From positions 1 through 64,000 of the IMG/VR virus record IMGVR_UViG_3300023278_003531: DNA of 64,000 nucleotides; one strand, written 5' to 3'. Positions 1 to 24,400 of the stretch are shown piece by piece (position 1 is the first letter of the stretch; every line of letters starts with the position of its first letter). The notes below the pieces were generated by a model. It was not told the origin of the DNA. It ran no database searches and was given only the letters and a program-made list of their open reading frames with translations. This DNA comes from a virus. The position numbers were made by a program, and so were the translations under genes.

Positions 1-1334
1 TATAACATTTCTCCCTTAAATACAGGTTTGTTAGCATCAAGAGTGGTCTCAAGGAGAGAACTACTAGATGTACTCACAATCTTGTCGAAGACATCCACCC
101 AGCGAGGGTTTATGTGCTTATCCCAAAGGAGATTATTGGAAACCATTTCGAATGCGGCTTTGGCTCTCTTCTTTCCCTCATCTCTGTTATCGTGAAGAAT
201 AATCAGCTGCTCCACCATCTTGTGAAGATGTCCGGTGGGACGAGGAACCTCATTGTCGTGAGGAAGAACAGTAGTGTGATCAATATCTCCACCACTGGGG
301 TAAGGGAAACCGGTCTCTTCGGTAATATATTCTCCTAAACACGTGTTGTTCGGGAAGACTACCGGAGTCATGGTCGCCATGGCCTCAGTCCATGATAATC
401 CCCACCCCTCACCTACTGTAGTGCTAACAATACAATCACTTGCATTGTAGATCATATTGACTACTTCCAATGGGAAACCATTGGAGGGAGTAAAATTCTG
501 GGGTAGGATCACATCTTCTTTTATATCCAGACCGTGTGATTTGATAACCTCAGGTAAATTCCACCCCTGATCAACCGCCGCCATGTGGAGATACAGGACA
601 GAATTTGGACGCAGCTTCTTGAAATCCTGGAAAGCTCGGATTGTGGCAGGGATATCCTTACGTTGCTGATTCCTATTCACATTGGTAATGATGAACTTGT
701 CAGCCTGTGGGCCAAAAAACTGTTTGCGGAAATTAAGTGTGTCTTGCTCGGAAAGCGGAAAGAAGACATCTGGATTAACACCGTGAGGCATAACCTGGAG
801 CCTATTAGCAATCTCAGGTACCAGTCTAACAGACTGTTCCCGAGCGAATTGGGAATAGGTTACGGGAAAATCTACTGAGTTGGCAGCCCGAATCCACTCC
901 TCCTTAGGAATACCATCTACCGGATAGTAAAAGACACTCTTGAAACGCTTACCGGACTTCTTCAAATTGTCTAACAAACCGGGGACAAAATCAAGAATGA
1001 ACGTGTCCTGTAGAAAGAACAAGATGTCATAGTCTAGATTGGGGTCAAGTAGGTGCTGCTGCAGGCGCTGCCGTCCATAAGGATCGCGCTGCTGATTGAC
1101 AGCCATGGGCCAAATATTGAAAGGATACTCATGAGGATCTCCCCAATAATTAATGCCTAAGATATCAACTTCGTAGCGTCCGGAATTGTACAGAGCGGGA
1201 AGGATGTTACGCGACACCTGCCCAAATCCCGTGGCACATGTAGGTGAATCTCCGTAGAAAATAATCTTAGACTTCTTCTTCTTTTTCTTACCGATATTTG
1301 GATCCATTCTATCTAAAAATTTCGGCTCGGCCAT
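1..1334 (-). CDS. GT4-family glycosyltransferase (3' end beyond window)
   Basis: Reading from the ATG at 1334, 444 codons stay open to the window edge, so the C-terminus is missing. After a lysine-rich stretch (about residues 16-23) comes a Rossmann-like start with YGDSPTCATGFGQ. The C-terminal half has VGEGWGLSWTEAMA, the E-x7-E nucleotide-sugar-binding signature of GT-B fold, GT4 family glycosyltransferases, and HGVNPDVFFP is also typical of the family. Such enzymes move a sugar from an activated donor to an acceptor. In phages they modify DNA bases, virion proteins or host surface sugars; nothing here decides which. It is the last gene visible of the replication operon and starts 7 bp after the Hfq-like gene. 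Family assignment is firm, substrate unknown. Confidence 0.88.
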   Translation of the reverse strand, partial: MAEPKFLDRMDPNIGKKKKKKSKIIFYGDSPTCATGFGQVSRNILPALYNSGRYEVDILGINYWGDPHEYPFNIWPMAVNQQRDPYGRQRLQQHLLDPNLDYDILFFLQDTFILDFVPGLLDNLKKSGKRFKSVFYYPVDGIPKEEWIRAANSVDFPVTYSQFAREQSVRLVPEIANRLQVMPHGVNPDVFFPLSEQDTLNFRKQFFGPQADKFIITNVNRNQQRKDIPATIRAFQDFKKLRPNSVLYLHMAAVDQGWNLPEVIKSHGLDIKEDVILPQNFTPSNGFPLEVVNMIYNASDCIVSTTVGEGWGLSWTEAMATMTPVVFPNNTCLGEYITEETGFPYPSGGDIDHTTVLPHDNEVPRPTGHLHKMVEQLIILHDNRDEGKKRAKAAFEMVSNNLLWDKHINPRWVDVFDKIVSTSSSSLLETTLDANKPVFKGEML

Positions 1335-1341
1335 CTTAAAT

Positions 1342-1551
1342 CTAACCTCCAGTCAAGAGCAACAACGCTCTCTTAATTATACGACGTGGGACGTCGATTG
1401 TGTCTTTATTTTTATCTTCAAGGTAAATTTTATACTGAGTGAATTTAACCACATACCCAAATAACTTAGACCCGTCAGCACATTCTATACCCATGAACGG
1501 ATGATCTAACTCCTCAAGCTGCGCTTGCGTTCTCGTTATCTGAGACATCAT
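1342..1551 (-). CDS. Hfq/Sm-like small RNA-binding protein
   Basis: A 69-aa protein with an Hfq-like core. Residues about 26-45 read DGSKLFGYVVKFTQYKIYLE, which lines up with the Sm1 motif of bacterial Hfq (G-x-K-L-x-G-x-[IV]-x2-F-x-Q-[FY]-x-I-x-L). A second strand and an IIKRA segment follow where Hfq has its Sm2 YKHA motif; the lysine is kept and the histidine is arginine. The helix before the core also fits. Hfq hexamers bind RNA and pair small RNAs with mRNAs; that this protein does so is inference. The gene overlaps the end of the RecB-like nuclease gene by 38 bp. Two adjacent ATGs (1551 and 1548) follow an AAGGTGG stretch. An alternative is another Sm-fold or SH3-like phage protein. Confidence 0.62.
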   Translation of the reverse strand: MMSQITRTQAQLEELDHPFMGIECADGSKLFGYVVKFTQYKIYLEDKNKDTIDVPRRIIKRALLLLTGG

Positions 1552-2683
1552 CCACCTTATGCTCCCTCACTTTAAAGACAGGAGCATTATAACTGACCTT
1601 GGCTACCTTAGAGAGCGGATCTTTGAGCTCCGGCCTGTCTTTAACAAAGCGATCCAGTTTGGCTTTATTTACTACCAAAACGTTGAAAAGATCTGCTTCG
1701 GGAATGATATTTATGACATCCTCAAGATCGTAATTAGTTCGTCCTGCTTGAGTACTGTAAAGTTCCCGCTGGGCGGTGGCAATGGTCTCACCTAGAACTG
1801 CCTTCTCGGAAGCCATCATCTTCATCTCACGCTGACGGTTCTCCAGGATACTCTTCTGACCTGCGACATGCTGCCAGTGCTCCAAGAATCCGGCAGGATC
1901 CATATCGGTAATAGAAGTAAGAACCCTACGACTATCTGCGACAGTGTCGGCATATTCAGGGCAATACACGCTATAATCGCACCACCCACATAGATTATTG
2001 ATCCGACCTTTTTGCTCCGCATCAACGATCTCATTCATGTGCTTCCAAGTACTTACCAAAAACCTACGGAACGTATCCTGCTGGGCGGCTGTCCTGTAGG
2101 AAGACACACTCTTATTGATTCGAGGATACTCCAAGGTAAGAATCCTATTGGAATACTGCGGCCAAACAATACTCGCTGCTAAATCATACATGGAGAGCTG
2201 GATATCATCCTTCAGCTGCCATGTAGAAAGAGCAGTACGTGAGGTCTTATAATCCACAACCTCAATAGTATCTTCATTGATGATTCTAACCTTATCAATT
2301 GCACCTACAATTGGGATGTCATCGGGAGTATTGATCTTGAAGAAATGCTCAACTTCTAAGACCTGCTCTGCGGGATCCCACCTGTCGATCCACTCAGTAA
2401 TCATGGTCTTCCCGTCTTCATAGAACTCCATGTTAGCCAGACCGATGTCTGTCGCCTTATCCATGAATACGGTGACGGCGAACTCATAATCTGACGGAGC
2501 CGGAAAGCTCTTCTTTTCCATCATACGACGTGTAAATTGCTCAAGTGCCTCATGGACAGCAATACCCACACGTGCATGGTCATTCATTACTCTCGGAATT
2601 TCACGGTCGTATCGGAACACCGTCTTCAATTTACACTGAAGAAAGTCCTTAATTCCCGTGGCAGATAATCCTCTAATATCCAT
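1514..2683 (-). CDS. RecB/Cas4-like Fe-S PD-(D/E)XK exonuclease
   Basis: 389 aa with all motifs of the PDDEXK_1 (RecB C-terminal/Cas4-like) nuclease family in order: H44 in GIAVHEALE, D130 in VGAIDKV, D144 and K146 in VVDYKTSR, and the Q162-x3-Y166 motif. C17 near the N-terminus and C232, C235 and C241 (C-x2-C-x5-C) form the four-cysteine set that holds a 4Fe-4S cluster in Cas4 and AddB. The enzyme probably resects or trims DNA ends during phage recombination or host DNA breakdown. The ATG at 2683 follows AGGAGATAACAG, 3 bp after the RuvC-like gene, supporting co-translation. No helicase domain is fused to it. A Cas4-type role is unlikely because no CRISPR genes or arrays are present. Confidence 0.88.
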   Translation of the reverse strand: MDIRGLSATGIKDFLQCKLKTVFRYDREIPRVMNDHARVGIAVHEALEQFTRRMMEKKSFPAPSDYEFAVTVFMDKATDIGLANMEFYEDGKTMITEWIDRWDPAEQVLEVEHFFKINTPDDIPIVGAIDKVRIINEDTIEVVDYKTSRTALSTWQLKDDIQLSMYDLAASIVWPQYSNRILTLEYPRINKSVSSYRTAAQQDTFRRFLVSTWKHMNEIVDAEQKGRINNLCGWCDYSVYCPEYADTVADSRRVLTSITDMDPAGFLEHWQHVAGQKSILENRQREMKMMASEKAVLGETIATAQRELYSTQAGRTNYDLEDVINIIPEADLFNVLVVNKAKLDRFVKDRPELKDPLSKVAKVSYNAPVFKVREHKVDDVSDNENASAA

Positions 2684-2686
2684 CTG

Positions 2687-3202
2687 TTATCTCCTATTTT
2701 TCTTACGCGTCTTCTTTTTGGTGGGTTCCGGCCCGGCCTTGATTAGCCCTCGGTATCCCCACAATAACGCCATTGCGTCTGTGATGTCATTCATCTTGTT
2801 GAATGTCCAATCGTCCAAATCATATTTGGTCTTGAAAAATTCAAAGACCTCTTCCTTCTTGAACTTACCTTCTTGCTCACCACAACAATGCTTCCTAGCA
2901 GTAGTAGCGGTAATTATCTCCACCTGAATACCTTTACTTGTACACAACTCTTGTGCCACACCTGCAAACTTAACTAAAGCCTTGAGGGTGTGGATGCTAC
3001 CAAAACCAGGTCGGTAGTACGCGTCCTCCACGACCACAAGGTCTGGTTTGTATTTGTCTAAAATCTCTTCCAACTCGATTCGAAAAACCACCAGCTTGTC
3101 ATTGAATGATAACTTAGGGTTAGGAGCAATTATACCACAGGAGCGTTTAGCTATGAACCATCCAGTACTTTTAGTAGAGACATCCAATCCTAATATTTTC
3201 AT
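2687..3202 (-). CDS. RuvC-like Holliday junction resolvase
   Basis: 171 aa, close to the usual RuvC length. The RNase H-fold acidic residues are in place: D7 in GLDVSTKSTGW, E59 in LVVVED, and D139/D142 in NDITDAMAL. RuvC-family enzymes cut four-way DNA junctions symmetrically. In a phage this resolves recombination intermediates and branched replicating DNA before packaging. The C-terminus is a lysine/arginine-rich tail (residues about 160-171) that probably binds DNA. The start codon overlaps the stop of dnaJ by four bases (ATGA), so translation is likely coupled. No RuvA or RuvB partners are present, as is usual for phage resolvases. Confidence 0.85.
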   Translation of the reverse strand: MKILGLDVSTKSTGWFIAKRSCGIIAPNPKLSFNDKLVVFRIELEEILDKYKPDLVVVEDAYYRPGFGSIHTLKALVKFAGVAQELCTSKGIQVEIITATTARKHCCGEQEGKFKKEEVFEFFKTKYDLDDWTFNKMNDITDAMALLWGYRGLIKAGPEPTKKKTRKKNRR

Positions 3203-3981
3203 TTGCTAAATAGCTGACGCAGCTTCTCCTTTTCTTCATCTGCGATACCCGACACGTCAGGGTAATTAATTTGAACCACTACCATTACATCTCCCCGAGG
3301 GCCTCCATTGAATCCCGCCCCTCCCTGGCCTGCCAATCGCATAGTATTTCCATGTTTTACTCCGGACGGAACTACCAAATTAAGTATCTTCTGCTCAGGG
3401 ACAACACCCTTTCCATTACAGGGGGTACAGGGAGTCTTTATTGATTGTCCTTGCGCCTCACATTTATCACAGCCCTGCTGGATGAACATACTGCCATGCT
3501 GCTGTTGAATAAACCCACCGCCCTTACACTGATCGCACATCTCAAACTCTGTCCCACCCCTACCAGAACAGGCAGAACACCCAGAAGTTAGATTATAATC
3601 CAATGACATCTCTGCGCCGAACAGCGCGTCAAACACGGTAATCTCCAAAGGAATCTGAATACTCTGACCCTTCATGGGTGGGTTCTTTTGGGGAGGGCCG
3701 AATGGAGAACGTCCTCCAAAGAACATACCAAAAGGATCACCTGTAGTTCTGAAACCTCCAGAAGAACCATTAGGAGAGCCGGTCATGTCATAAGACTGTC
3801 TCTTCTCAGGATCAGACAGCACCGAGTAGGCTTCGGAGATCTCTTTGAACTTCTCCTCCGCCCCCTCGGCGCTGTTCTTATCGGGGTGCCACTCCTGGGC
3901 CAATGTACGATATGCTTTTTTCAAAGCATCGGGCGCAACGTCCCTGGAAACCCCAAGTGTGTTATAATAATCCTTAACCAT
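3199..3981 (-). CDS. dnaJ: DnaJ-type (Hsp40) co-chaperone
   Basis: About 260 aa with a J domain at the start (YYNTLGVS, then the HPD motif in EWHPDKN), a Gly/Phe-rich linker, and a zinc domain of four Cys repeats (CSACSGRG, CDQCKGGG, CDKCEAQG, CTPCNGKG), followed by the C-terminal substrate domain. It is therefore a type I Hsp40. It is somewhat short, lacking part of the usual C-terminal region (E. coli DnaJ is 376 aa). I place the start at the ATG at 3981, because it gives the standard J-domain N-terminus and overlaps the upstream zinc-ribbon stop by 8 bases; an in-frame ATG at 4011 would add 10 residues. No DnaK or GrpE is in the window, so it probably recruits host Hsp70, perhaps for replisome loading as with lambda replication. 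Confidence 0.9.
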   Translation of the reverse strand: MVKDYYNTLGVSRDVAPDALKKAYRTLAQEWHPDKNSAEGAEEKFKEISEAYSVLSDPEKRQSYDMTGSPNGSSGGFRTTGDPFGMFFGGRSPFGPPQKNPPMKGQSIQIPLEITVFDALFGAEMSLDYNLTSGCSACSGRGGTEFEMCDQCKGGGFIQQQHGSMFIQQGCDKCEAQGQSIKTPCTPCNGKGVVPEQKILNLVVPSGVKHGNTMRLAGQGGAGFNGGPRGDVMVVVQINYPDVSGIADEEKEKLRQLFSK

Positions 3982-4126
3982 TGGGCGTTCCGGCAGCTTC
4001 AATGTGTACAACTACGGTGTTACCACAAGCCCCACAATTGTAGACAATCTGCTCACCTTCACGGCCGACTGACCACTTACTAGAACTGTCGCAATAGATA
4101 CAAATCGGATAATCTGCCTGTCCCAT
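3974..4126 (-). CDS. 50-aa zinc-ribbon protein
   Basis: A short ORF from the ATG at 4126 to the TAA at 3974-3976 encodes 50 aa with two CxxC knuckles (C9/C12 and C31/C34) separated by 18 residues, the layout of a minimal zinc ribbon. It fills the gap between the 109-aa gene and dnaJ, ends in an 8-base overlap with the dnaJ start, and follows GGAGAATAATT as ribosome binding site. Context and the intact knuckles make it a real gene rather than chance. Function is not known; small zinc ribbons often bind nucleic acid or proteins. Confidence 0.8.
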   Translation of the reverse strand: MGQADYPICIYCDSSSKWSVGREGEQIVYNCGACGNTVVVHIEAAGTPNG

Positions 4127-4128
4127 AA

Positions 4129-4458
4129 TTATTCTCCTGCGGATTTGATGATCTCACCGTGAACGATAACTTTATCGTCATTATGTTCTAGTCCGGCGAT
4201 GCTGAAACACTCATCATCTTTCAATGACGGATACTGCGAGGTAGCGAAAAGAACCCTATTCAACTCGTACATCAGAAATACATTGTCTTCATAAATTGAA
4301 AACTCATCAGGTCCTGGAACCTCAGACGTCGGCGCGCCTGGAAGCTCGCTGATCTTACCTCTCAGAGGTACCTCAATCTCATGTCTTCCTCCCAACTCCC
4401 AATCATAATCCTTAGCTGGGAGCAGAACGGGACCAGAAACTCCTTTTACATTACCCAT
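4129..4458 (-). CDS. Hypothetical protein, 109 aa
   Basis: I do not recognise this protein. It is mostly polar and acidic, with an N-terminal segment that could be beta structure (VPLRGKISELPG) and a short hydrophobic segment (NVFLMYELNRVLFA) in the middle. It has no transmembrane helix, signal peptide or obvious motif. The ATG at 4458 lies 2 bp after the SSB stop and has GGAGCATAGT upstream, so it is part of the replication operon. Position between SSB and the zinc ribbon suggests a replication accessory role, but nothing in the sequence shows it. Confidence 0.75.
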   Translation of the reverse strand: MGNVKGVSGPVLLPAKDYDWELGGRHEIEVPLRGKISELPGAPTSEVPGPDEFSIYEDNVFLMYELNRVLFATSQYPSLKDDECFSIAGLEHNDDKVIVHGEIIKSAGE

Positions 4459-4459
4459 A

Positions 4460-5104
4460 CTATGCTCCTACTTCACCGGCGGTGAAATTGGTAACAACCG
4501 CATCAGTAAAGAAACGCGTCTGTCCGTCCGGCGCGTTCCACTTTCGCTCCTGAACATGGCCGGAAACCTTAACAGCCCCCTGCTCACCTATCTGATCCAA
4601 CTGCTCAGCAAGCTCATCCCATGCAGTAATTCTAACATAGGAATGTCGTAGTGTTTCTGGATCATCGGCGCGGTAATAGGGCACCTTAACCTTAGCGTGA
4701 AATAGAGAAGTATCCTTACTCGGACCAACCTTCTTCAGCTCAGGCCACTGCAAAGTACCTTCCAAAACAAAGAGGTTTACTCCTTCGTTGGAATTTTCCA
4801 CGACCTCAGCAGAATCCACTACGAGATCCGTAACATTTCGCTTCTTGCCCTCATGAACATAACTTCGCTCATTGATTCGGGTGTTTGCCTTGATAATAGT
4901 ACCCTCAGGCAAACTTCCCAACCACTCTGCCCAATCTTCCCACGCAGTGATGCGAAGAACAGACTCCCGGGCATCGCCGGAACGCTGATCGGTAGTGGGG
5001 ATACCAATCTTACACTTAAACAGAGACTTCCCACCACTGGTTTGTTTAAGTTCGGGCCACTTAATTGCCCCTTGAATTACTGCACTGTTTGTTCCTACTG
5101 TCAT
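4460..5104 (-). CDS. ssb: Single-stranded DNA-binding protein with two tandem OB folds
   Basis: 214 aa made of two similar halves, residues about 8-101 and 113-208. Both contain a WPELK turn, an RITAW strand (EDWAEWL in the first, DELAEQL in the second) and a final NER/QER strand, matching the SSB pattern 'W..lAE...kG..v.v.G.l..r'. The halves are clearly homologous, so one chain carries two OB domains, as in Deinococcus-type SSB. The protein should coat ssDNA at the fork and in recombination. The acidic C-terminal DDIPF-like tip of E. coli SSB is absent; the chain ends GEVGA. Start: the ATG at 5104 has GGAGG at ideal spacing and follows the primase stop by 1 bp; an in-frame ATG at 5179 inside primase is less likely. 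Confidence 0.85.
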   Translation of the reverse strand: MTVGTNSAVIQGAIKWPELKQTSGGKSLFKCKIGIPTTDQRSGDARESVLRITAWEDWAEWLGSLPEGTIIKANTRINERSYVHEGKKRNVTDLVVDSAEVVENSNEGVNLFVLEGTLQWPELKKVGPSKDTSLFHAKVKVPYYRADDPETLRHSYVRITAWDELAEQLDQIGEQGAVKVSGHVQERKWNAPDGQTRFFTDAVVTNFTAGEVGA

Positions 5105-5105
5105 T

Positions 5106-6116
5106 TTATCCTCCAAGATGTTCTCTGACATCGTTATAAGTAAAGTCCTTAGGATCTTTACCATCTGGTAAGCCAACAACTATCGTGCTGACAAAAGGTT
5201 CGAGCATTTTATTCACACGCTTCGCACCTTCTCTTCCTGCCTTATCTGCGTCCAACATGATGGTCACATTTTCCGCATACTTAGAGAGAAGACCTCTCTG
5301 TATTGGTGTAATGTCTATTCCCATAGCAGCAACAACATTATACACGCCCTGCATTGCCAATCCCCAAACATCTACAAATCCTTCTACCAATATTAAAGTT
5401 CTATCCTCGCCTTGTAGAACATCACCGACATACCATTTGGCAACATCCAGATTATATAAAGTAGTTCCTTTGTTTATGTTCTTCATCAGAAGATATTTGG
5501 GATCTTCGTTGGAATCTGTTCTACGACCACTAATGGTAAGTAGATCGCCATTTTCGTCCCGAATAGGTATAGTTTCTCTGTGAATTCCCTTACCATCAGT
5601 ATAACCTCCTATCTCATAGAAGTCTAGGAGTTCTGCAGGGAAACCACGATCTTCAAAATAACTGGAACGATTTGATTTCAAATCTTCTAAGACCAACTCT
5701 GGAAAAAACCGGGTAGTTGAGGAGACGGGGGTACTTGCTTTGATTTCCCTTTGTACCTCCCGCTGTTGTTTCATTTCTAAATACTTGTCAGACAGAGTTT
5801 CTTGATTGTTTAGATCAATACCGGCTATATCCGCTAAGAACCTAACAGCATCGACAAAAGTTACTCCCGATGCCTTCATCACCAACCCCACTAAATCCCT
5901 GTCACCCTCCCCCTCACAATGTCGGGTGTAACAGCACCACGTTCTGGTCTCTAAATTGAACCGGAAACCTGTGATGTTATCTCCTCCGTGAATTTTACAC
6001 GGGCCTCGGAGTTCCCGACCACTCCGCTTGACTATATTAAAACCAAGGTGGTTAAGAACACTCTCAGGATCAACCGAGAGCTTAACATTAACAATAGTTT
6101 CAGGCTGGATCTTCAC
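5106..6116 (-). CDS. DnaG-type DNA primase (zinc finger plus TOPRIM)
   Basis: 336 aa. The N-terminal CHC2-type zinc site uses C40, H43, C61 or C62 and C67. The central region reads as the DnaG catalytic core, with TOPRIM motifs LILVEGFVDVWGL (E245) and MLDADKAGREG (D289, D291). At 336 aa it is much shorter than bacterial DnaG (about 580) and lacks the C-terminal helicase-binding domain. It synthesises RNA primers for the lagging strand and should act with the DnaB-like helicase encoded two genes upstream. The 5' end overlaps the membrane-protein gene by 17 bp, a sign of coupled translation. Confidence 0.92.
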   Translation of the reverse strand: MKIQPETIVNVKLSVDPESVLNHLGFNIVKRSGRELRGPCKIHGGDNITGFRFNLETRTWCCYTRHCEGEGDRDLVGLVMKASGVTFVDAVRFLADIAGIDLNNQETLSDKYLEMKQQREVQREIKASTPVSSTTRFFPELVLEDLKSNRSSYFEDRGFPAELLDFYEIGGYTDGKGIHRETIPIRDENGDLLTISGRRTDSNEDPKYLLMKNINKGTTLYNLDVAKWYVGDVLQGEDRTLILVEGFVDVWGLAMQGVYNVVAAMGIDITPIQRGLLSKYAENVTIMLDADKAGREGAKRVNKMLEPFVSTIVVGLPDGKDPKDFTYNDVREHLGG

Positions 6117-6537
6117 TTGATGCTCTCACAATCTGTTCAAAAACTACCCTAACATTGGTTCTAAGTGACTCATCACTGATATTAGGCACGCCGCGGACAC
6201 CCGCGTCTCGGTACCTCTTAAGTTCTATGGACAAGAACTCAAAAACATCATCCTCCACCTCTTCGAAGCTGGTGTTAGTAGAATCTGCTAAAGTGTCTCT
6301 AAAAAAGTCAGCAAGTCGGGCAGATACTTTCAACGCATCTGCGGTATCGAACTCACTCGGATCGTCCTCAACCTTGGATGCTGCCATATTAAGAAGAGTA
6401 GATAGCGGTATGGATTTTAAGATACGATCTACCCACATCTTAACTTTGGGATTCTTAAAGTAAAAGAAAAAAAGTAATCCAAGTCCCGCTGTCGCTGCTA
6501 CCGTACCCACCAGATCTAGAATTTCTCTAATATCCAT
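6100..6537 (-). CDS. Single-pass membrane protein between helicase and primase genes
   Basis: 145 aa from the ATG at 6537, chosen because AGGAGG lies 6 bases upstream; ATGs at 6543 and 6564 are less well placed. Residues about 5-26 (LDLVGTVAATAGLGLLFFFYF) form one hydrophobic transmembrane helix followed by positive residues (KNPKVK), predicting an N-terminal anchor with a cytoplasmic helical domain of about 115 residues. The gene overlaps dnaB by 11 bp and primase by 17 bp. I recognise no family. The placement suggests a membrane tether for the replisome or its regulation; that is inference from context alone. Confidence 0.8.
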   Translation of the reverse strand: MDIREILDLVGTVAATAGLGLLFFFYFKNPKVKMWVDRILKSIPLSTLLNMAASKVEDDPSEFDTADALKVSARLADFFRDTLADSTNTSFEEVEDDVFEFLSIELKRYRDAGVRGVPNISDESLRTNVRVVFEQIVRASSEDPA

Positions 6538-7969
6538 TTCCATCCTCCTCCCCGTCCCCACCACTAGACATCAAGTCTCTGAGCTGGACACGAGATTCCT
6601 GCATAGTCAATATTTTTTTGCGGAAATTCATATCAATTCCGCTGAAATTAGTTCCACCTGCACGGGTATCCAGGATCTGAAGACGATGCGTTCCCATACC
6701 AAGTGCATTATCTCTACCGTACTCCTCCTCCAACTTCTTCATTTCCTCGTGTGTCTTAGGAGCCAATCCTAAGAGGGTGTTTGCATACCTGAGGATACGA
6801 TCTGAATCTGCGAAGTCAGTCGCAGTGACGCGTCCCTTGTTGGCCCCCTCCCTGCCAATCTGGGCTGCAGTCAAAACTGGTATCTCCAATTGCCCTGCTA
6901 GATTCTTGAGCGCCACACACAAATAACCAAGGGCCTGATATTCTTTCACCTTTCCCATCTGCTGGAGATCCGCATCTGGGAGTTTAATGTAATCAAAGAT
7001 TATACAGCCAATACCGTGCTGATGCTTATATTTTCGTGTGAGAGCACTCACCCCCTCAGCTGTGAAGTCGGGGTAGTACTTGTGTAATATCTTGCCTCTC
7101 TGAGCAATGTCGAGCGCCTCATCCACCGCCTTGTCCCATTCGGGGTTAGATGTATAAGTTCCGTTCTTGATCTCCTTCTCATAAACACTAGACAAAATAG
7201 ACAACAAACGAAATTGCTGCTCTTTGGTGCTCATCTCAGTATCCAAATACAGGACTGGGATGTTCTCCACATATGCCAAATGCTGAGCGATATTCATAAG
7301 AGTGGCTGACTTTCCCGCCTTCGGGCGGGCTCCCAGAACCGTCAGAGTCCCGGGCTCCAGGCCGTTGATGGCGGTATCGAGGAGTTCGAATCCGGTGGAT
7401 AGTCCTCTAACGCTGGTAGGATCTGACTTCGCCTCCTCAACAAGCTCGGCCAGTCCCTCTGATATATTTACCGCATCGGTTCCTTTATTACTCTCAACCG
7501 AGATCTGGAGGAACTGCTCCTGGGCATGACCTACTATATCCTCGGCAGCCAGGGAATCTCCTGTAAGGACCCGGTTCTGATCGGTCATCTCGTGGATCTC
7601 TGCGGACGCTTTTATGATCTTGAATTTAGTGCTGGCATCCAAAACTCTCTTAATGTAGAACTCTATATTGTTAGGCTCCACTCTCTTATCGAAGAGGGCA
7701 TTAACGTAATCATATCCGTAGATCTTCTCCTCAAGGCCCATGGTGCCCGCCTGAGTTAGAATAGCGGCAGCATCTAAGGTAGCAAGATCCTCCCGCATCA
7801 GACCTTTTATGATAGTCCAAAGAGCACGATTGTGGGAAGTTAGAAAATCACCATCACTTAGTTTAGCCTCGACTTCGAAATAATTTGTAGGATCTTTGAG
7901 AACACACGCTATAATCGTCGCCTCATTACCGGCATGTGAGAACTTAACTTTAGTTTGTTCCAAATCCAT
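6527..7969 (-). CDS. dnaB: Replicative DNA helicase, DnaB family
   Basis: 480 aa, the normal DnaB length. The N-terminal domain (about 1-160) has the DnaB-type opening with NEATIIACVLKD. The RecA-like C-terminal domain has Walker A GARPKAGKS (213-221), the conserved YLDTEM glutamate (E245), Walker B CIIFDYIKLPD (D326), and TAAQIGR near 368. It unwinds DNA as a hexameric ring on the lagging strand. No separate helicase loader is recognisable, although the 161- and 180-aa unknowns are nearby. Its start shares one base with the stop of the 161-aa gene (TAATG). Confidence 0.93.
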   Translation of the reverse strand: MDLEQTKVKFSHAGNEATIIACVLKDPTNYFEVEAKLSDGDFLTSHNRALWTIIKGLMREDLATLDAAAILTQAGTMGLEEKIYGYDYVNALFDKRVEPNNIEFYIKRVLDASTKFKIIKASAEIHEMTDQNRVLTGDSLAAEDIVGHAQEQFLQISVESNKGTDAVNISEGLAELVEEAKSDPTSVRGLSTGFELLDTAINGLEPGTLTVLGARPKAGKSATLMNIAQHLAYVENIPVLYLDTEMSTKEQQFRLLSILSSVYEKEIKNGTYTSNPEWDKAVDEALDIAQRGKILHKYYPDFTAEGVSALTRKYKHQHGIGCIIFDYIKLPDADLQQMGKVKEYQALGYLCVALKNLAGQLEIPVLTAAQIGREGANKGRVTATDFADSDRILRYANTLLGLAPKTHEEMKKLEEEYGRDNALGMGTHRLQILDTRAGGTNFSGIDMNFRKKILTMQESRVQLRDLMSSGGDGEEDGNGY

Positions 7970-8454
7970 TAAGAGCGTTCCCTAGAAACAATAGTGCGTT
8001 CATCCCGGCGTCTATTATTTTCAGCCTTGATCGCATTCATAAGTTCGATAATGGGCTTATCCACACCATCGAGGAGATCCCTTTCCGCAGTGGCTATAGT
8101 AAGTTCTAACTCCAGTGCGCTCAATTCCCCAGAAGAAGCAATCGCATTGGCTTCTCTCTCTTTAAGAGTACCACCGGGTATGTTACCTGATTGGATAAGG
8201 GATTTGACTCTTCGATCCAACACCTTCTTCTTTGTACTCGACTCAACCCTCGCAACATTGGATCTATACTGAAGAGTAATAAGGTACTGCCCCAACATGA
8301 CTACATACTGGGACAAAACCTGGGAGGAGTATGCCTCCATGTCCCGCGCGTTGAAGTTAAACACCTCTTCGATCTGAGAAGGAGGTGCGGCGGCATGAAG
8401 GGACAAATCATTCGACACCTGCTTCAATCTGTCTCTGACCGACTCATCCATCAT
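7969..8454 (-). CDS. Hypothetical helical protein, 161 aa
   Basis: Predominantly helical and charged, with a heptad-like stretch around residues 95-150 (ELSALELELTIATAERDLLDG) suggestive of coiled coil. I recognise no family motif. It lies between the nuclease gene (11-bp overlap) and dnaB (1-base overlap). Size, helical character and place next to recA and dnaB make a recombination mediator (UvsY-like) or a helicase loader possible, but I see no diagnostic sequence for either. Two adjacent ATGs (8454, 8451) could start it. Confidence 0.75.
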   Translation of the reverse strand: MMDESVRDRLKQVSNDLSLHAAAPPSQIEEVFNFNARDMEAYSSQVLSQYVVMLGQYLITLQYRSNVARVESSTKKKVLDRRVKSLIQSGNIPGGTLKEREANAIASSGELSALELELTIATAERDLLDGVDKPIIELMNAIKAENNRRRDERTIVSRERS

Positions 8455-8794
8455 TCTGCGCCTCTTCTATTTTGATTAGAATATCTTCTGTAGTGATCGG
8501 AATTTCGTCAAAGTTTATACGAAGAAGAGTATTGTCATGTAAATCACACCACTCCTTCTTCATCTTATCTCGTTTCTTCTGACCTTTAAAAGCCATAGCG
8601 TCTTTGTGAAAATGTTTATTGAACGAAGTGTGTTGTTGTCCCTGCACTTCCACATAGAGATTGAGTGTGGGTAGATAGAAATCAAAAAACAACCGCTGTC
8701 CTTGGAACTCCACGTACTCCTCGTGCTTGATGAGGAGATTAGGCAGCGCTTTTTGAAGACTTTCTAGTACGCTTTTTGCTAGATGGCTTGTCAT
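8444..8794 (-). CDS. PD-(D/E)XK endonuclease-like protein (Vsr/DUF559-like fold)
   Basis: 116 aa. The core FFDFYLPTLNLYVEVQGQQH gives D38, then E49-V-Q51, the pattern of small PD-(D/E)XK nucleases where Q replaces the motif lysine; H55 follows. It continues with RDKMKKEWC and a strand LLRINFDEI, matching the usual order of the Vsr/DUF559 type. It could nick mismatched, branched or foreign DNA. The gene begins inside the 3' end of recA with a 56-bp overlap and continues in a different frame. No HTH or NUMOD is visible, so it may be a repair enzyme rather than a homing endonuclease. Substrate unknown. Confidence 0.72.
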   Translation of the reverse strand: MTSHLAKSVLESLQKALPNLLIKHEEYVEFQGQRLFFDFYLPTLNLYVEVQGQQHTSFNKHFHKDAMAFKGQKKRDKMKKEWCDLHDNTLLRINFDEIPITTEDILIKIEEAQNDG

Positions 8795-9851
8795 CTACTT
8801 GCTCCCCCACAATCTCTTTTTCTGGCTCGTCAGGAACATCAACTACCCCACCTGTAATTATAAGACGTAATTGCGCTTCCAGGGAAATTTTCAGAGAAAT
8901 ATCTTTCTGTAGTTCCAATTTAGCTCTATCTTTACCCTGCCACTTATGCTCTCCATAAGTTAGCCACGAACCGCCCTTCTCAATAAGACCCATATCCACA
9001 CCCATCTCTATCAACTCGCCATCAGTATCATAGCCCATACCGTAGATCAAATCTACTTCGGCTGTTCGCCAAGGGGCTGCTCTTTTATTCTTCACCACCT
9101 TGAAGGTGGTTCGGTGACCATACACCTCACCTGTACCCGCATCCAGAAGCTTGCTGGCCTTAGACTGCCCTCCTCTAACATCTATCCTGTAAGCGGCATA
9201 GAAGGGAAGGGCCCTACCTCCGGTAGTGGTTTCTGGATTACCATAGGTTCCGATCTTATTTCGGATTTGATTGATGAAAATTAAGAGCGTGTTAGTTCTC
9301 TTGACTATAGGTAAGATCTTCTGAATTCCAGCACTTAGGAGACGGGCATGTTGTCCTATAGACTGCTGGTCAAAATCGGCTTCCATACGTGCTTCCGGAA
9401 CCAGGGCAGCAACGCTATCTATCATAACAATAGCAAACTCGCCTGTCTCCATGAGCTTCTGGGCTATACTTAAATTGGCTTCCCCGGTAGGCGCACCGTC
9501 TACAACCATGACTTGGTTTTCCGGAAGGCCGAGTCTTACCAGAAGTTCGGTATCTAAAGAATTCTCGGCATCTATGATGGCGCATTTATGACCACGGGCA
9601 CAGGCCTGCAACATGGTGGCGTAACCGAGAAAACTCTTCCCCACACCTTCTGGTCCGAAGATCTCAAGAAGAAGTCCCCGTTCAAAACCACCGCGACCTA
9701 CGGCGTTATCCAAACCCAAACATCCGGTAGAAAGATACTCACGTTCCTCCTTCGCAGCTTCTCCCAGCCACTTAATTACATGGCCGTATTCCTTTTCAAT
9801 CGCTTTAGTGGTGACGTTAATTACCTGATTATTATCAGTCGGTGTTATCAT
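8739..9851 (-). CDS. recA: RecA-family recombinase
   Basis: 370 aa with Walker A GPEGVGKS (66-73), IIDAEN with the catalytic glutamate at 96, Walker B IVMIDSVAAL (D145), and the strongly conserved loop INQIRNKIG and GNPETTTGGRALPFYA. It catalyses homologous strand pairing with ssDNA in phage recombination and recombination-dependent replication. It resembles bacterial RecA more than T4 UvsX. The C-terminal 30 residues are lysine-rich (KKRTRKSSKSA) and overlap the next gene by 56 bp. The 5' end overlaps the 180-aa gene by 17 bp. Confidence 0.94.
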   Translation of the reverse strand: MITPTDNNQVINVTTKAIEKEYGHVIKWLGEAAKEEREYLSTGCLGLDNAVGRGGFERGLLLEIFGPEGVGKSFLGYATMLQACARGHKCAIIDAENSLDTELLVRLGLPENQVMVVDGAPTGEANLSIAQKLMETGEFAIVMIDSVAALVPEARMEADFDQQSIGQHARLLSAGIQKILPIVKRTNTLLIFINQIRNKIGTYGNPETTTGGRALPFYAAYRIDVRGGQSKASKLLDAGTGEVYGHRTTFKVVKNKRAAPWRTAEVDLIYGMGYDTDGELIEMGVDMGLIEKGGSWLTYGEHKWQGKDRAKLELQKDISLKISLEAQLRLIITGGVVDVPDEPEKEIVGEQVDDKPSSKKRTRKSSKSAA

Positions 9852-10377
9852 TTAGTTTCTCCAAAATCTTCTTTCTTTTCTTTGCCGCATTCTCGAAATC
9901 CTCCTGGGAATTTTCACGATCCAAGACTTCGTTTATCTTCTCAATGTACTCATTAGTTTTTAACTCCTCCACCTCACTCACATCACCATTGACGAAATTA
10001 CAAACTCTATCCATGATAGAACGGGAGGTTAGAATAGTCAAATGATTTATCGGCTCGCGAAGTTTCAAAAACTCCTCATACTTAAACAAAGCATCTACCA
10101 ACTCGGCTGACTCTCTAACAGCATTTTTCCTGCTGAGCCCTAACTTCTGACGTGAACGAACTAAATCGGCCGCGTATAGGTTATCCTTACCCCAGTCTAT
10201 AGATGCGGGGAATTTACGATCTTCATTGTAGTAGAACCGGCGAGCATAGAAATACTCTACCAACCTCTTAACACTGGTTACCGACTCAGTGCTAGGAAAT
10301 TTTACCTTAATGACTCGATAACCCCGATCTTGAAGAGACTTGACGGCATCTTCCTCATCAAAGTATAATCCAGACAC
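9835..10377 (-). CDS. Hypothetical protein between clamp and recA, 180 aa
   Basis: I do not recognise a family. The N-terminal third looks alpha/beta (GYRVIKVKFP), the middle is helical (SAELVDALFKYEEFLKL), and the last 45 residues are highly charged and probably coiled coil. The start is GTG at 10377, which shares one base with the dnaN stop (TAGTG). The 3' end overlaps recA by 17 bp. The position between sliding clamp and RecA argues for a replication or repair role, such as a clamp-associated factor; this is inference only. Confidence 0.75.
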   Translation of the reverse strand: MSGLYFDEEDAVKSLQDRGYRVIKVKFPSTESVTSVKRLVEYFYARRFYYNEDRKFPASIDWGKDNLYAADLVRSRQKLGLSRKNAVRESAELVDALFKYEEFLKLREPINHLTILTSRSIMDRVCNFVNGDVSEVEELKTNEYIEKINEVLDRENSQEDFENAAKKRKKILEKLNDNTD

Positions 10378-11534
10378 TAATCAACCTTTTTAAGGGTACA
10401 AACAAAAGCCTTGAAAGCGTCATCCTCAGGCTCTTTCAACAGAACACCACGAGCATCCGAAGTAAAGTAAAACTCAAACTCCGCACCCCTCAACTGGCGC
10501 AAGGAATTCTGAAGCAACATGGAATCGAAGTGTAGTATGAAATCAGCAGGAGTGGAAACCTCAAGATCGGAACTCTCCGCCTCACCCGTCACGCTGGAAG
10601 TTGAGAGGCTGGCGGTTCCTTTCTCGGCAGCATCCACTACCAGGCGATGACTCTTAGCATCCACAGATGGCTGCATTCCCTGGAGAACAGACATAAATGC
10701 TTCTCGGGGGAAAGTTGCCAGTTCTAAACCGGAAGTAACCATATAGTCAGTATAGTCTGGAAACTTAGTACTAATTAAAGTACCCACCAAAGTAGTACCA
10801 CCGCTCTTCAAGAAAAACTGGTCATCCTCAACATACATATTCACAACATCGAATGAAGGATTGACCAATTTAGATGCGACGGTTGCAAACTTAAGCCCCA
10901 AAATGAAAGAGCCGCGAAGGCCATTGACCTCCGCGTCTCGTCTAAACTCTGCAATTTGAATGCCGTCTGTTGCGGCGAAGACAACTTCATCCTCGGTGAG
11001 GGTGAGTTGGATACAATTAAAGTGCAATTTGGAAACATCTTTGGATGCGGCATGTCCTACCTTGGACAGGCCGTCCATGAACTGAAAGGCTGGAAACTCA
11101 GTGGCCAAAGAATCATTGAACTCGGGGGCCTCAATGAAGAAACCAGAATTCAGCAGTGGGAAGTTCCGCACATGCTTTAGAGTATGCTCTTCAGACACAC
11201 GATTACCACCAGAAACCTTGAGAGTACTCTTGGAAGTGGTCGCGAGAATAACATTATTTGGTTCGTTATCAAAACCAAAGTCCTCAAAGGTAGCAGTAAC
11301 GGAGGTCGCTACCGCACCTGCCTTAACTAGGGCCTCCCCCTCTTCCTTAACAATTGCGGGTACTTGTACCCTAACACCTAAATTATCGTCAGAGGAAGTA
11401 AAAACCGCAGTGGATCCTTCTGCGCGAACAAGGACACCGGTCTTCTCCTCTGCGACGGCAGAACTAGCGGGTGCAATTTCGTTGCACGTGTTCAGCGCCC
11501 GCTTTAAATCTTGCGCAGCAATCTCAATCTTCAT
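10377..11534 (-). CDS. dnaN: DNA polymerase sliding clamp (DnaN beta-like)
   Basis: 385 aa, the length of bacterial beta clamps. It begins MKIEIAAQDLKRALN, as DnaN does, and contains VVFAATDGIQIAEFRR, equivalent to the conserved 'l.lvATDghRLA' segment of domain II. The end RGVLLKEPEDDAFKAFVCTLKKV matches the DnaN C-terminus 'P.ll.....e...ylimPvr' in layout. Dimers would encircle DNA as a processivity ring for a polymerase not in this window. It is the first gene of the replication operon, with GGAGAGG 5 bases before the ATG and a near-perfect sigma70 promoter about 50 bp upstream. Confidence 0.87.
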   Translation of the reverse strand: MKIEIAAQDLKRALNTCNEIAPASSAVAEEKTGVLVRAEGSTAVFTSSDDNLGVRVQVPAIVKEEGEALVKAGAVATSVTATFEDFGFDNEPNNVILATTSKSTLKVSGGNRVSEEHTLKHVRNFPLLNSGFFIEAPEFNDSLATEFPAFQFMDGLSKVGHAASKDVSKLHFNCIQLTLTEDEVVFAATDGIQIAEFRRDAEVNGLRGSFILGLKFATVASKLVNPSFDVVNMYVEDDQFFLKSGGTTLVGTLISTKFPDYTDYMVTSGLELATFPREAFMSVLQGMQPSVDAKSHRLVVDAAEKGTASLSTSSVTGEAESSDLEVSTPADFILHFDSMLLQNSLRQLRGAEFEFYFTSDARGVLLKEPEDDAFKAFVCTLKKVD

Positions 11535-21464: not shown

Positions 21465-24400
21465 CTAATCACAATTTACGAGCGGGGTCTTCCACCTAAC
21501 CAAAAGGGAAGCGTCACGATTCTCGTTACCTGTTATATCCTTGGGTATGTTGCTTCTAATATATATAGTAGCCTCTTCCCCGTCTTCTACTCCCAACGAA
21601 ACCAGAGGCAAGTCGTCAGAGCCTGAGCTGTGGAAATTAACATTGTCCAGAGAAATCTCAATCATATCAGAGGGCTTTAGTAACTGACTACGTAATAGAT
21701 CTCTATCAAACCTGTCGCTGAAGTCTGTCTTAGCATAATTATAAATCTTAATGTTCTCTAAAAGTGCCCAAGTGGATGCAGTATTTGTAGCAGGTTGGGT
21801 AGGAACTGGCGTGAAAGTTGTCGCTGTTTCGTTTTGAGGGGCTGCGGCAATTGCCTGCCCGACCTCACCCCCAAACATAACAGACGCGCCTCCCTCCCTC
21901 ACACCTTCCCAGGAACGATTACTACCATAGACTATCTCCCCATCAACGACTATCTGGACAGTAGAGTTAAGTGGCCCAATACTCCCATTGACATCCCACA
22001 CCAAAGCAACGTGCATTGTCTGATACTTCGCGAACGTGTAATTCTCTATCTTAGATTGGAACTGATACAACCTTTCCAAGTCATTTATGATCACAATAAA
22101 ACCAATTCCAGGTCGGAAAAAGAAAGTCATGAACTTACCATCAGGTCGTGTTATTTTGAAGATACTGGGAAGTACATCCGTGAATTGATTAACTCTACCA
22201 GTCTCTCCCCAATCAGGCTGGAACCAGAACTCAACAGTACCTATGGAAATATCCAGACCTTCCTGATAAATAGTAAAGGTCTCGCTGTTATTCAAATAAA
22301 GGGATGGGGTGAAGTTACAAACGTCGTCGAAGTTATTGCGAACAAATTGCATATCATCCAAGATTAATTCTAGATTCCTGGAACTACCAACGCCCCGGAA
22401 CTCTAACTCAAAGTATCGTATTCCTGGGGCATCAAAGACATTCCTTGTGTAGTTACCATCCACCGAGGAGGTTATCACAAAGTCCGCAGTTACGAAATCT
22501 ACCTGACTCTCCCCTGTATTTAAATCATAACTCGCCCCGGGCTGAAAAGGAATCTCAGATCGGTCAGCCGCTGATTTAAATTGAAGTTTGATCTCATTCC
22601 AACCAGATTGCAATGATAGTTCTTTCATATTCCACACATAGGAAATATCGCGATCGTTTCCTAGGCGTATAGTTCCGAAATTAGTATCAAGAAGTGCTAT
22701 ATCATTTATCTTCATCCAAAAAACAAAGAAATCTCGCTCGGAGAAATCAGCATCGTTGTTAGCATCTATACCATCCAGGGACACAGCTGCGACTGCGACC
22801 GAATCAACAGCGTATGTTATCTTAGTGCCTCTTTGATTAGTACTGTTAGGATGTACCTCTGGAACATCAGCCATTTCTACCAAAGGAGTCAATTGAATCT
22901 CCGACTCCAGCAAACGAAATTCATGAATAACTATAGAATTGGCATCCTCACCCTGACCTTGTACTGAATCCACCTCTAAAGTCCAGGTATCTGCAGTTAT
23001 TGGAGGATTCAACGTACCGCTGAAAGTCAACCCGACGAAATCCTCCTCGGTCAGGACAACCTGCTCGACAGAACCAGGGTTAGCTTTGAGGGTAAAAGTA
23101 GCGGGCGCGTTAGTACGTAAGCCCGTGCCTACCTGCTTGGCATAGCTCTCGTCCATCTCCCATTCAAATCTGTTTACGGTTTTAGGCTCAGCAAGAGTAA
23201 CAGTAAGGGTATCTGTAAATCCGGTAGCTTGCCAGAAAGTCCCATTATCGCCATCCACCATATAAGACGCCTGGTGTTCGGGGACAAAGGTTAGAGACGA
23301 TGCCGTAGAACCCCAGGCATGGTTGGTCTCGATGAGTCCCTGTATATTAGCGGAAGACACGGTCTCTTCAAACAACTGAATAGACACAACACGTGTCTGG
23401 GGACCACGACCAATACCAAACTGATTGGATTGTCCTACTTCATTGGGCTCATTGAGAACAGACTCATCGGGATAAACACTGTCTTCTACATAAACACGCA
23501 TTCCTGAGGTCTCTATGGTATTGATAAAAATATGTGTAAAGCCAATACCCTCATTATAACTATCCACTCCTGTAAAAGACGCCTGATCGATGTCTAACCA
23601 GCTGGCATCAAGTGTGGGATCTGATTCTGAATTGGTCAAAGTTTGGATCTTGAAGTCTGTGGGGTAAAATTCTGTGTCGTACCCCAATACAGTAATGGCT
23701 TTAATCTCTTTGGTAATCACGTCACCTCTGTACGCGTCATGGAAAACTCTCCAAACATAGTGGGGAAATTCACTGCCCGGTACCACAAGATCAGTCAATG
23801 TGTTCTTAGTAAAGACACCCCAATAATCATCTTCGGATATCTCATCGAACTTACCATCCCAAAGGAAGAAGGGGTCACCTATAGTATTGACATCAGAAGA
23901 GTTATGGCTAGCTCCATAATCCACACCCTCCAGCAGACTATAAAGATTGCCTTGAGTATTATTAAAGGTGGAGACATCCTGTAATCCTGCACGGGTAGTA
24001 CTAAACCAATTAGAGTTCTCCGTGAATATCTCTGGTTGGGCCGGAGCAAAATTAACACCAAACAAAGTACCACCCTGCGTGTTAAAGTTATACTGCTTAG
24101 GCTGGGAGGCTAAATCCGACTGCAAGAGATTACTATCACCACGTACGGCCACCCATCTAATTGCGGTAGAGGGAGTAGCAGTACCCCAATCGGAATACTC
24201 TACATTCTCAGGGCTGCCCACTCCAATAAATGACTTATTGGAATACGTAAAATTGCTATCATCATCTACATCCCAATAGCCTTTATCGTCTGTTGCGGGT
24301 TTAGCTCCCGGTGTCAGTAAGTCTCGTCTAAGTTCGGTGGCTGCGGAAAACGTACTGAGTCTGTAGGGCCTATTTAAATCAAAGCATATTACGGGATAGT

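Follow-up and report, generated by a model that had tools for sequence, protein, structure and literature searches.

Two questions are raised by this locus: whether a protein of the Hfq type is encoded among the replication genes of a virus, and if so, whether that protein would act on host RNAs or in the replication cycle of the virus itself. The stretch of DNA that was analysed, hereafter the window, is 64,000 nucleotides long and comes from a record of 196,567 bases for a large uncultured bacterial virus. A preliminary description made from the letters of the window had placed a 69-aa Hfq/Sm-like product at 1342-1551, and an ATG-initiated ORF of that length indeed lies there, on the minus strand, which the description had not given (Table 1). 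As had also been described, this ORF (hereafter the Sm gene) overlaps the nuclease ORF, by exactly 38 nt with the stop codon included; the gap between its stop codon and the glycosyltransferase ORF is 7 nt. An identical protein is encoded on an IMG/VR contig of 297,725 bases, and across the 19 copies that were measured the protein is 64-94 aa long. We calculated dN/dS for ten pairs of copies of our own choosing, over residues 19-66 only, which lie outside the overlap. The ratio was 0.031-0.159 in eight pairs; for the remaining pairs, both with saturated dS, pN/pS stayed below 0.15. The Sm ORF is thus protein-coding and under purifying selection.

Table 1. Position of the Sm gene, its motifs and the surrounding replication genes in the window.
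Feature	Position	Strand	Basis and remarks
Glycosyltransferase after Sm gene	3..1334	minus	PHROG 2170 8.6e-53; ORF runs off the low end of the window
Hfq-like Sm-fold protein, 69 aa	1342..1551	minus	ORF, AlphaFold2 topology, dN/dS; ATG start, stop codon 1342-1344
Sm2-like segment D53-V54-P-R56-R57-I-I-x-R61	1369..1395	minus	D53, V54, R56 and R61 invariant in 17/17
Sm1 motif, residues 27-43	1423..1473	minus	G27, K29, F31, G32, F37 and Y43 invariant in 17/17; spanned by the profile match to Hfq
PD-(D/E)XK (RecB/Cas4-like) exonuclease, 389 aa	1514..2683	minus	PF12705 2.6e-22; PHROG 69 exonuclease 2e-30; 3' end overlaps Sm gene
Possible ribosome-binding sequence AAGGTGG	1552..1558	minus	Inferred from sequence; abuts the ATG, within the nuclease gene
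RuvC-like Holliday junction resolvase	2687..3202	minus	PF02075 5.8e-05; PHROG 159 7.3e-18
DnaJ with CXXCXGXG domain	3199..4011	minus	PF00226 4.1e-26; start codon uncertain
109-aa protein of the module	4129..4458	minus	No Pfam or PHROG match; position kept in 18/22 copies, unmatched in L032-L035
Single-stranded DNA-binding protein (SSB)	4460..5179	minus	PF00436 3.5e-12
DnaG-like primase, Toprim domain	5106..6116	minus	PF13155 1.1e-14
DnaB-like replicative helicase	6527..7969	minus	PF03796 1.2e-35
UvsX-like recombinase	8739..9851	minus	PHROG 97 8.7e-63; upstream in the same cluster
DNA polymerase processivity factor (sliding clamp)	10377..11534	minus	PHROG 947 7.3e-28; upstream in the same cluster

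The placement of the gene in a replication operon, which had been claimed as well, was borne out, as the Sm ORF comes after the genes for DnaB, primase, SSB, DnaJ, the RuvC-like resolvase and the nuclease, and the glycosyltransferase gene then follows. We compared this module in 22 of the 24 contigs that bear the Sm gene (all but L019 and L036), together with three loci that lack it. The order DnaB, primase, SSB, 109-aa protein, DnaJ, RuvC-like resolvase, nuclease, Sm protein and glycosyltransferase was constant in the 22 copies as far as the contigs or loci reach, with exceptions in a distant group, L032-L035. These four contigs carry one identical Sm sequence, 38% identical to that of the window; their DnaB, primase, DnaJ, RuvC and nuclease proteins are 34-43% and their glycosyltransferases 45-46% identical to those of the window, and their SSB and 109-aa proteins found no match at 1e-3. 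The glycosyltransferase gene follows the Sm gene in 21 of the 22 copies, the remaining contig (L025) ending just past the Sm gene; in L032 a GIY-YIG gene stands between the two. Of the 19 copies of the Sm gene measured, 18 overlap the nuclease gene by 23-53 nt, and the remaining one, L032, is separated from it by a gap of 2 nt. Rfam and tRNA scans of the window returned nothing, and since no Rfam family was found there, the window offers no candidate RNA partner. Between positions 1 and 9000, promoter-like sites were about as frequent as expected (16 against 13.6, sd 4.0) and terminator-like sites somewhat more so (11 against 6.5, sd 2.7).

To what fold the protein belongs was judged from two AlphaFold2 models, both of them template-free monomers. 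Model 1, built from six sequences (pLDDT 83.8, pTM 0.65), has one helix and five strands in the Sm order, and model 2, built from 17 sequences (pLDDT 85.8, pTM 0.68), has the same elements. With model 1 as the query, all 50 PDB matches listed by Foldseek were Hfq, the best being 3hfo_A (E 7.2e-05), and 12 chains stood at an E value of 0.001 or lower. VIA, by which 963 of Foldseek's 1000 best chains were aligned, likewise gave Hfq for all 50 matches listed, with Z of 8.8-10.0 and rmsd of 1.6-3.0 A. The fit of model 2 to Hfq was looser (Z 7.7-8.6, rmsd 3.1-5.0), and its 50 listed matches comprised 47 of Hfq and three of a diheme cytochrome. As a Z under 8 may, by VIA's own note, reflect only a common arrangement, it is model 1 with its unanimous list that carries the weight. 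In BFVD the matches were mostly uncharacterised small viral proteins at modest scores, one of them named 'RNA-binding protein'. An Sm fold was therefore what the prediction returned, and the top matches listed were Hfq and not a non-RNA-binding SH3-like protein, so that a Hfq/Sm-like fold is well supported by the predicted structure.

The relation to Hfq was much fainter at the level of sequence. The protein of the window scored 12.7 bits (E 0.1) with the Pfam Hfq model, for which the cut-off is 27, and 13.7 bits with NCBIfam TIGR02383, for which it is 61.7; within the 196-kb record the Sm ORF was, at E <= 10, the sole match reported to the Hfq model (E 0.043). A phmmer search of PDB chains with the same protein gave one chance match, which was not to Hfq. 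For the family we aligned 17 of the 20 listed copies, the window row representing L001, and omitted L006 and L026, which are near-copies of L005 and L027, and the truncated L019. Six of the 17 members matched the Pfam Hfq model, the best of them being the distant member L032 (2.7e-04), and two NCBIfam Hfq models were each matched by four members (best 0.00046); in the outputs examined no member reached the Pfam or NCBIfam Hfq cut-offs, the highest Pfam score among them being 20.9 bits. When the 17-row profile was run against PDB sequences, Hfq chains came first (E 0.0056) and ribosomal S1 was the first protein other than Hfq, its chains extending over E 0.02-0.8, with an LSm1 chain only at E 1.4. 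A 5-row profile put ribosomal S1 marginally before Hfq (0.051 against 0.064); no chain of S1, whose domain is of the OB type, stood among the fold matches listed for either model. By hhalign the family aligned with seven Hfq sequences at P 67% (E 5e-05) over 39 columns, which cover the end of the helix and the Sm1 half only, and the best of 100 column-shuffled controls reached P 24.6%. The family HMM matched four of the seven Hfq loci in the comparison alignment (E 0.005-0.057) and missed three (L066, L067 and L069); as unrelated ORFs scored level with those matches (0.053-0.095), it scores true Hfqs at chance level. The LSM model PF01423 was not among the six Pfam families matched by any of the 17 members at E <= 10, in a scan where the HMMER filters discard most matches above 0.1. 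In PHROGs all matches were to families without an assigned function (best E 0.0065, obtained with a member), and a query with E. coli Hfq matched no PHROG family named Hfq. Taken by itself the sequence support for a relation to Hfq is weak but consistent, and it would not settle the matter.

The first Sm motif could be judged directly. The spacing G-x-K-L-x-G-x-[IV]-x2-F-x-Q-[FY]-x-I-x-L, the form of Sm1 used for Hfq, had been read in this product; the motif is genuine and present, the string occurring a single time across all six reading frames of the window and never in 20 residue shuffles. In its exact form it is found in only one of the 17 aligned members, the core that the family shares being G-x-K-x-F-G-x-[VI]-x-x-F-[TSD]-x-[YH]-x-[IVL]-Y. 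For the second motif the register had to be taken from the models. VIA paired all 64 residues (4-67) of the E. coli Hfq chain 4jrk_A with residues 1-67 of the model, which has three extra residues and arrives at an offset of 0 at the C-terminal end; other E. coli Hfq chains end at an offset of 0 or +1, and with model 2 it is mostly 0. In the Sm1 part the register relative to Hfq is +2 by hhalign, and the phage family has about two residues more than Hfq between Sm1 and the place of Sm2. Because of the C-terminal offset of 0, and of the short turn, at residues 56-58 in both models, that links strands 4 and 5, we set R56-R57 at K56-H57 of Hfq. Thus P-R-R-I probably occupies the place of YKHA in the modelled structure, with R56-R57 on or beside K56-H57 and an error of one residue possible. 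The preliminary description had instead put IIKRA at the YKHA position, which would require a shift of four residues in the opposite direction; in our models IIKRA falls in strand 5, and it is R56-R57 and not K60-R61 that comes to lie on or next to K56-H57. K60 is moreover variable (K in 7 of 17 members), and R61 is invariant.

Read in this register, the residues by which Hfq holds RNA are kept in part. In Hfq, Q41, F42, K56 and H57 form the proximal uridine pocket, Y25 belongs to the distal A-rich site, and R16 and R17 make up the arginine patch of the rim. All 17 members keep G27, K29, G32 and F37 of Sm1; the equivalents of Hfq K31 and F39 are accordingly invariant, and the place of F42 is taken by Y or H throughout. 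At the place of Hfq residue 56 there is R in 17/17, and residue 57 is R or K in 15/17, the YKHA place reading P/S-R-[RKND]-[ILH] in every member, so that the [YF]-K-H-A of Sm2 is not present. The place of Q41 holds Q in 8/17, and that of the distal-site Y25 holds E in nine members and Q in eight. At the place of R16/R17 hhalign sets E13 and E14; positions 13-15 show no conserved R or K, and the fit of the helix differs between the two models. We know of no Hfq counterpart for the invariant F31, Y43, D53-V54 and R61. The plain reading is that the basic, aromatic side of the pore is kept and the distal A-rich side is changed; as Q41 and Y25 of Hfq are not retained, nucleic-acid binding may be changed or lost. 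Compared with bacterial Hfq (PF17209, TIGR02383), the phage family therefore shares the predicted fold of a helix and five strands, a similar size, the equivalents of G29, K31, G34 and F39, Y or H at F42 and a basic residue at K56; it differs in scoring below the cut-offs, in lacking YKHA, in not conserving Y25, Q41 or, apparently, the rim arginines, and in having its gene inside a phage replication module. The earlier Hfq/Sm-like claim thus stands as to fold, well by predicted structure and modestly by sequence, and is not supported as to Hfq identity, given the scores under the cut-offs and the want of the Sm2 KH, of Y25 and apparently of the rim arginines. We call the protein Hfq-like, not Hfq.

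In IMG/VR the Sm gene was found in 24 different contigs, always adjoining the same nuclease gene. Scans with the neighbouring families gave 26 nuclease loci and 19 glycosyltransferase loci, and by the Sm HMM the gene is present at 21 of the former, at the nuclease end, and at 18 of the latter. At two of the five nuclease loci without it (L024 and L031) the contig ends inside the nuclease gene, and the other three (L038-L040) have nucleases of 25-26% identity; the one glycosyltransferase locus without it (L058) is distant, at 38% identity. A scan of viral contigs with the Sm family only gave 78 pattern stretches that resolved to 19 loci, all in contigs already known through the neighbours. It recovered 19 of the 24 known contigs and missed the L032 group and L054, and because of these five misses absence elsewhere holds only for fairly close relatives. 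The whole records of six module-bearing phage contigs gave one Sm match each; in records G001 and G006 the listed match spans run past the stop of the ORF, and the ORFs are intact. A scan with the L032 nuclease added two loci with weak matches, L084 (24%) and, over a short stretch only, L085. The family HMM, which misses some true Hfqs, was also applied around related nuclease genes, and it found no Sm ORF there in Gordonia phage Demosthenes, in Bacillus phage vB_BpsS-140 or in L038-L040; in L038 one ORF (7037-7273) that overlaps the end of the nuclease was inspected by eye alone. Among annotated phage records there was no credible relative of the window protein (six Phocaeicola phage matches at E 6) and none of the distant member L032, and two pattern scans of host genomes, one per species for 84,980 species, gave 37 and 19 stretches, none of which was confirmed. 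Relatives of the glycosyltransferase in Tetrasphaera phage TJE1 and Synechococcus phage S-CBS4 lie among terminase, portal and sugar genes, outside such a module. E. coli Hfq as a query matched nine phage records. Two are Salmonella contigs of 500 kb, two are records of Acinetobacter phages in which an hfq is annotated, with 85% identity to that of E. coli, and two lack annotation, one a fecal contig and the other a fragment of 1.5 kb; in the last three the match was to a capsid gene, at E 6. None of the nine was accepted as a precedent.

Several known systems invite comparison. A Sm-like protein of putative cyanophage origin is PDB entry 3BY7; it resembles the phage Sm protein, by description, in being Sm-like and presumably from a tailed phage, and its gene context differs. 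In PMC2530865, 3BY7 is the solved GOS homologue of a hypothetical gene, and a figure legend draws the related gene with terminase and tail-sheath homologues. PMC3543421 describes, on Thermococcus and Methanocaldococcus plasmids (pCIR10, pP12-1, pIRI48 and pMETVU01), Hfq-like genes immediately downstream of helicase genes, with which a shared transcript is thought likely; a role in replication is only speculated there, and the proteins carry a zinc finger, except pIRI48 gp2. As described in that text, the plasmid proteins and ours alike are encoded on a mobile element downstream of a replication gene, the neighbour being a helicase in the plasmids and a PD-(D/E)XK nuclease in the phage family. 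For an archaeal virus, Pyrobaculum spherical virus, the same text cites a Hfq-like protein (PMC3543421), by its description also a virus-encoded Hfq-like fold; an uncharacterised protein of that virus, which may or may not be the one cited, stood at rank 41 in BFVD (E 0.02). In the B. subtilis plasmid CP120602.1 (34016-34744; 12017-12745 of locus L070) an annotated hfq follows a Dna2/Cas4 gene by 15 nt, so that there as in the phages a gene of the Hfq type comes after a Cas4-like/RecB-like nuclease gene, although the plasmid protein is an annotated Hfq with YKHA and the nuclease is a different one of 162 aa. That plasmid cluster also has helicase, toprim and thermonuclease genes. The available portions of PMC2518516 and PMC10989914 hold nothing directly bearing on Hfq-like phage genes, and in a literature search that covered few subscription papers no mention was found of a protein of this type among the replication genes of a tailed phage. 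On archaeal plasmids, Hfq-like genes next to genes for replication have already been described; with its constant position in the module and its changed RNA-contact surface, the tailed-phage family makes the question of a replication role testable.

We consider it probable that the Sm gene encodes a phage-specific Hfq-like Sm-fold protein of a conserved replication-recombination module, which forms a ring, binds single-stranded RNA and has nucleic acids of the phage itself as its targets. This reading starts from the ORF, its selection, its synteny and its overlap with the nuclease gene, together with the predicted fold. With its start codon located within the nuclease gene, the protein would be made along with the nuclease by translational coupling, and it would assemble into a small ring, a hexamer if Hfq is a guide. 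The ring would probably bind single-stranded RNA at a basic pore lined by R56/R57 and the aromatic residue at position 40, and would act while the phage replicates. The simplest form of this is that it regulates the mRNA of the module by binding to RNA; a close alternative is that it handles RNA or single-stranded DNA at replication intermediates. We place the protein in the replication cycle of the phage itself because even in the L032 group the gene is still found with the helicase and primase genes. Host-takeover genes tend to be gained and lost among related phages; this one is a fixed part of one module and was found nowhere else in scans that reach fairly close relatives, for which reason a phage-internal job fits better than the hijacking of host small RNAs. 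As several of the residues that hold RNA in Hfq differ, the protein is also likelier to serve the virus in its replication than to be a copy of the host Hfq. More tentatively, the ring might be a standing part of the replication machine that binds phage RNA or single-stranded DNA at intermediates, such as RNA primers or R-loops processed by the nuclease and the RuvC-like resolvase; we know of no such role for Hfq in bacteria or tailed phages.

A possible, though minority, reading is that the ring serves as an accessory of the nuclease or of recombination, binding single-stranded DNA or RNA-DNA intermediates and feeding or protecting ends with no regulation of mRNA. In 18 of 19 copies the start codon of the Sm gene lies within the nuclease gene, and the two genes are constantly adjacent, in a cluster that contains RuvC, SSB, UvsX and the clamp; the plasmid hfq directly beside a Dna2/Cas4 gene agrees with this, as does the Hfq structure solved with double-stranded DNA (5uk7). 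But the overlap would equally serve simple translational coupling, the plasmid is a single example with another nuclease, and the failure of the family HMM to find a Sm ORF at the Demosthenes and vB_BpsS-140 nuclease homologues counts against it, weakly, since true Hfqs are missed as well. That the protein is a true, functional Hfq, capturing small RNAs or mRNAs of the host and redirecting host regulation in the infected cell, as the preliminary description had suggested for small RNAs, we regard as unlikely. The Hfq fold and the Sm1 motif agree with it, but Y25, the Sm2 KH and apparently R16/R17 are not kept, the scores lie under the family cut-offs, and the gene is fixed in the replication module and was not found elsewhere by our scans; nothing positive was found for redirection of host small RNAs. 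The two pattern scans of host genomes gave no close relative, which also disfavours a recent capture from a host. Very unlikely, in our estimate, is a small SH3-like barrel that binds only protein, for example to hold the nuclease or the glycosyltransferase, and has no nucleic-acid function: the many uncharacterised viral proteins in BFVD, the partial loss of Hfq RNA-contact residues, the conserved D53-V54 and F31, which are compatible with some other surface, and the cytochromes among the Hfq matches of model 2 would suit it, but the PDB matches listed were all Hfq for model 1 and nearly all for model 2, and the basic R56 and R61 are invariant. A spurious frame, to which the shortness of the ORF and its overlap with the nuclease gene might point, can hardly be maintained against dN/dS of 0.03-0.16 outside the overlap in eight of ten pairs and the recurrence of the ORF in 24 contigs at a length of 64-94 aa across the 19 copies measured.

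Some further features of these loci were noted. DnaJ with a zinc domain is present in the replication module of all 22 Sm-bearing copies compared (3199-4011 in the window), and just upstream of it lie small zinc-ribbon-like ORFs with two CxxC pairs (window 3974-4126, with a sub-threshold Pfam match only; L032 3644-3832). Between the DnaB and primase genes, a 154-aa ORF (window 6100-6564) has an N-terminal stretch that appears membrane-like by eye and no Pfam or PHROG match; similarly placed ORFs occur in L006 (604-1056) and L032 (1505-1915). The GIY-YIG homing-endonuclease-like genes of L032 stand before DnaJ (3839-4675) and directly after the Sm gene (7376-8122). Two giant ORFs of 2631 and 2125 codons lie on the minus strand of the window (21465-29360 and 29746-36123). 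A second glycosyltransferase gene in L006 (7535-9712) has a long insertion, absent in L012 (6540-7673), with C at its start, N at its end before SGYAEA and a LAGLIDADG match of 24.5 bits (cut-off 22.5), and this insertion looks like an intein.
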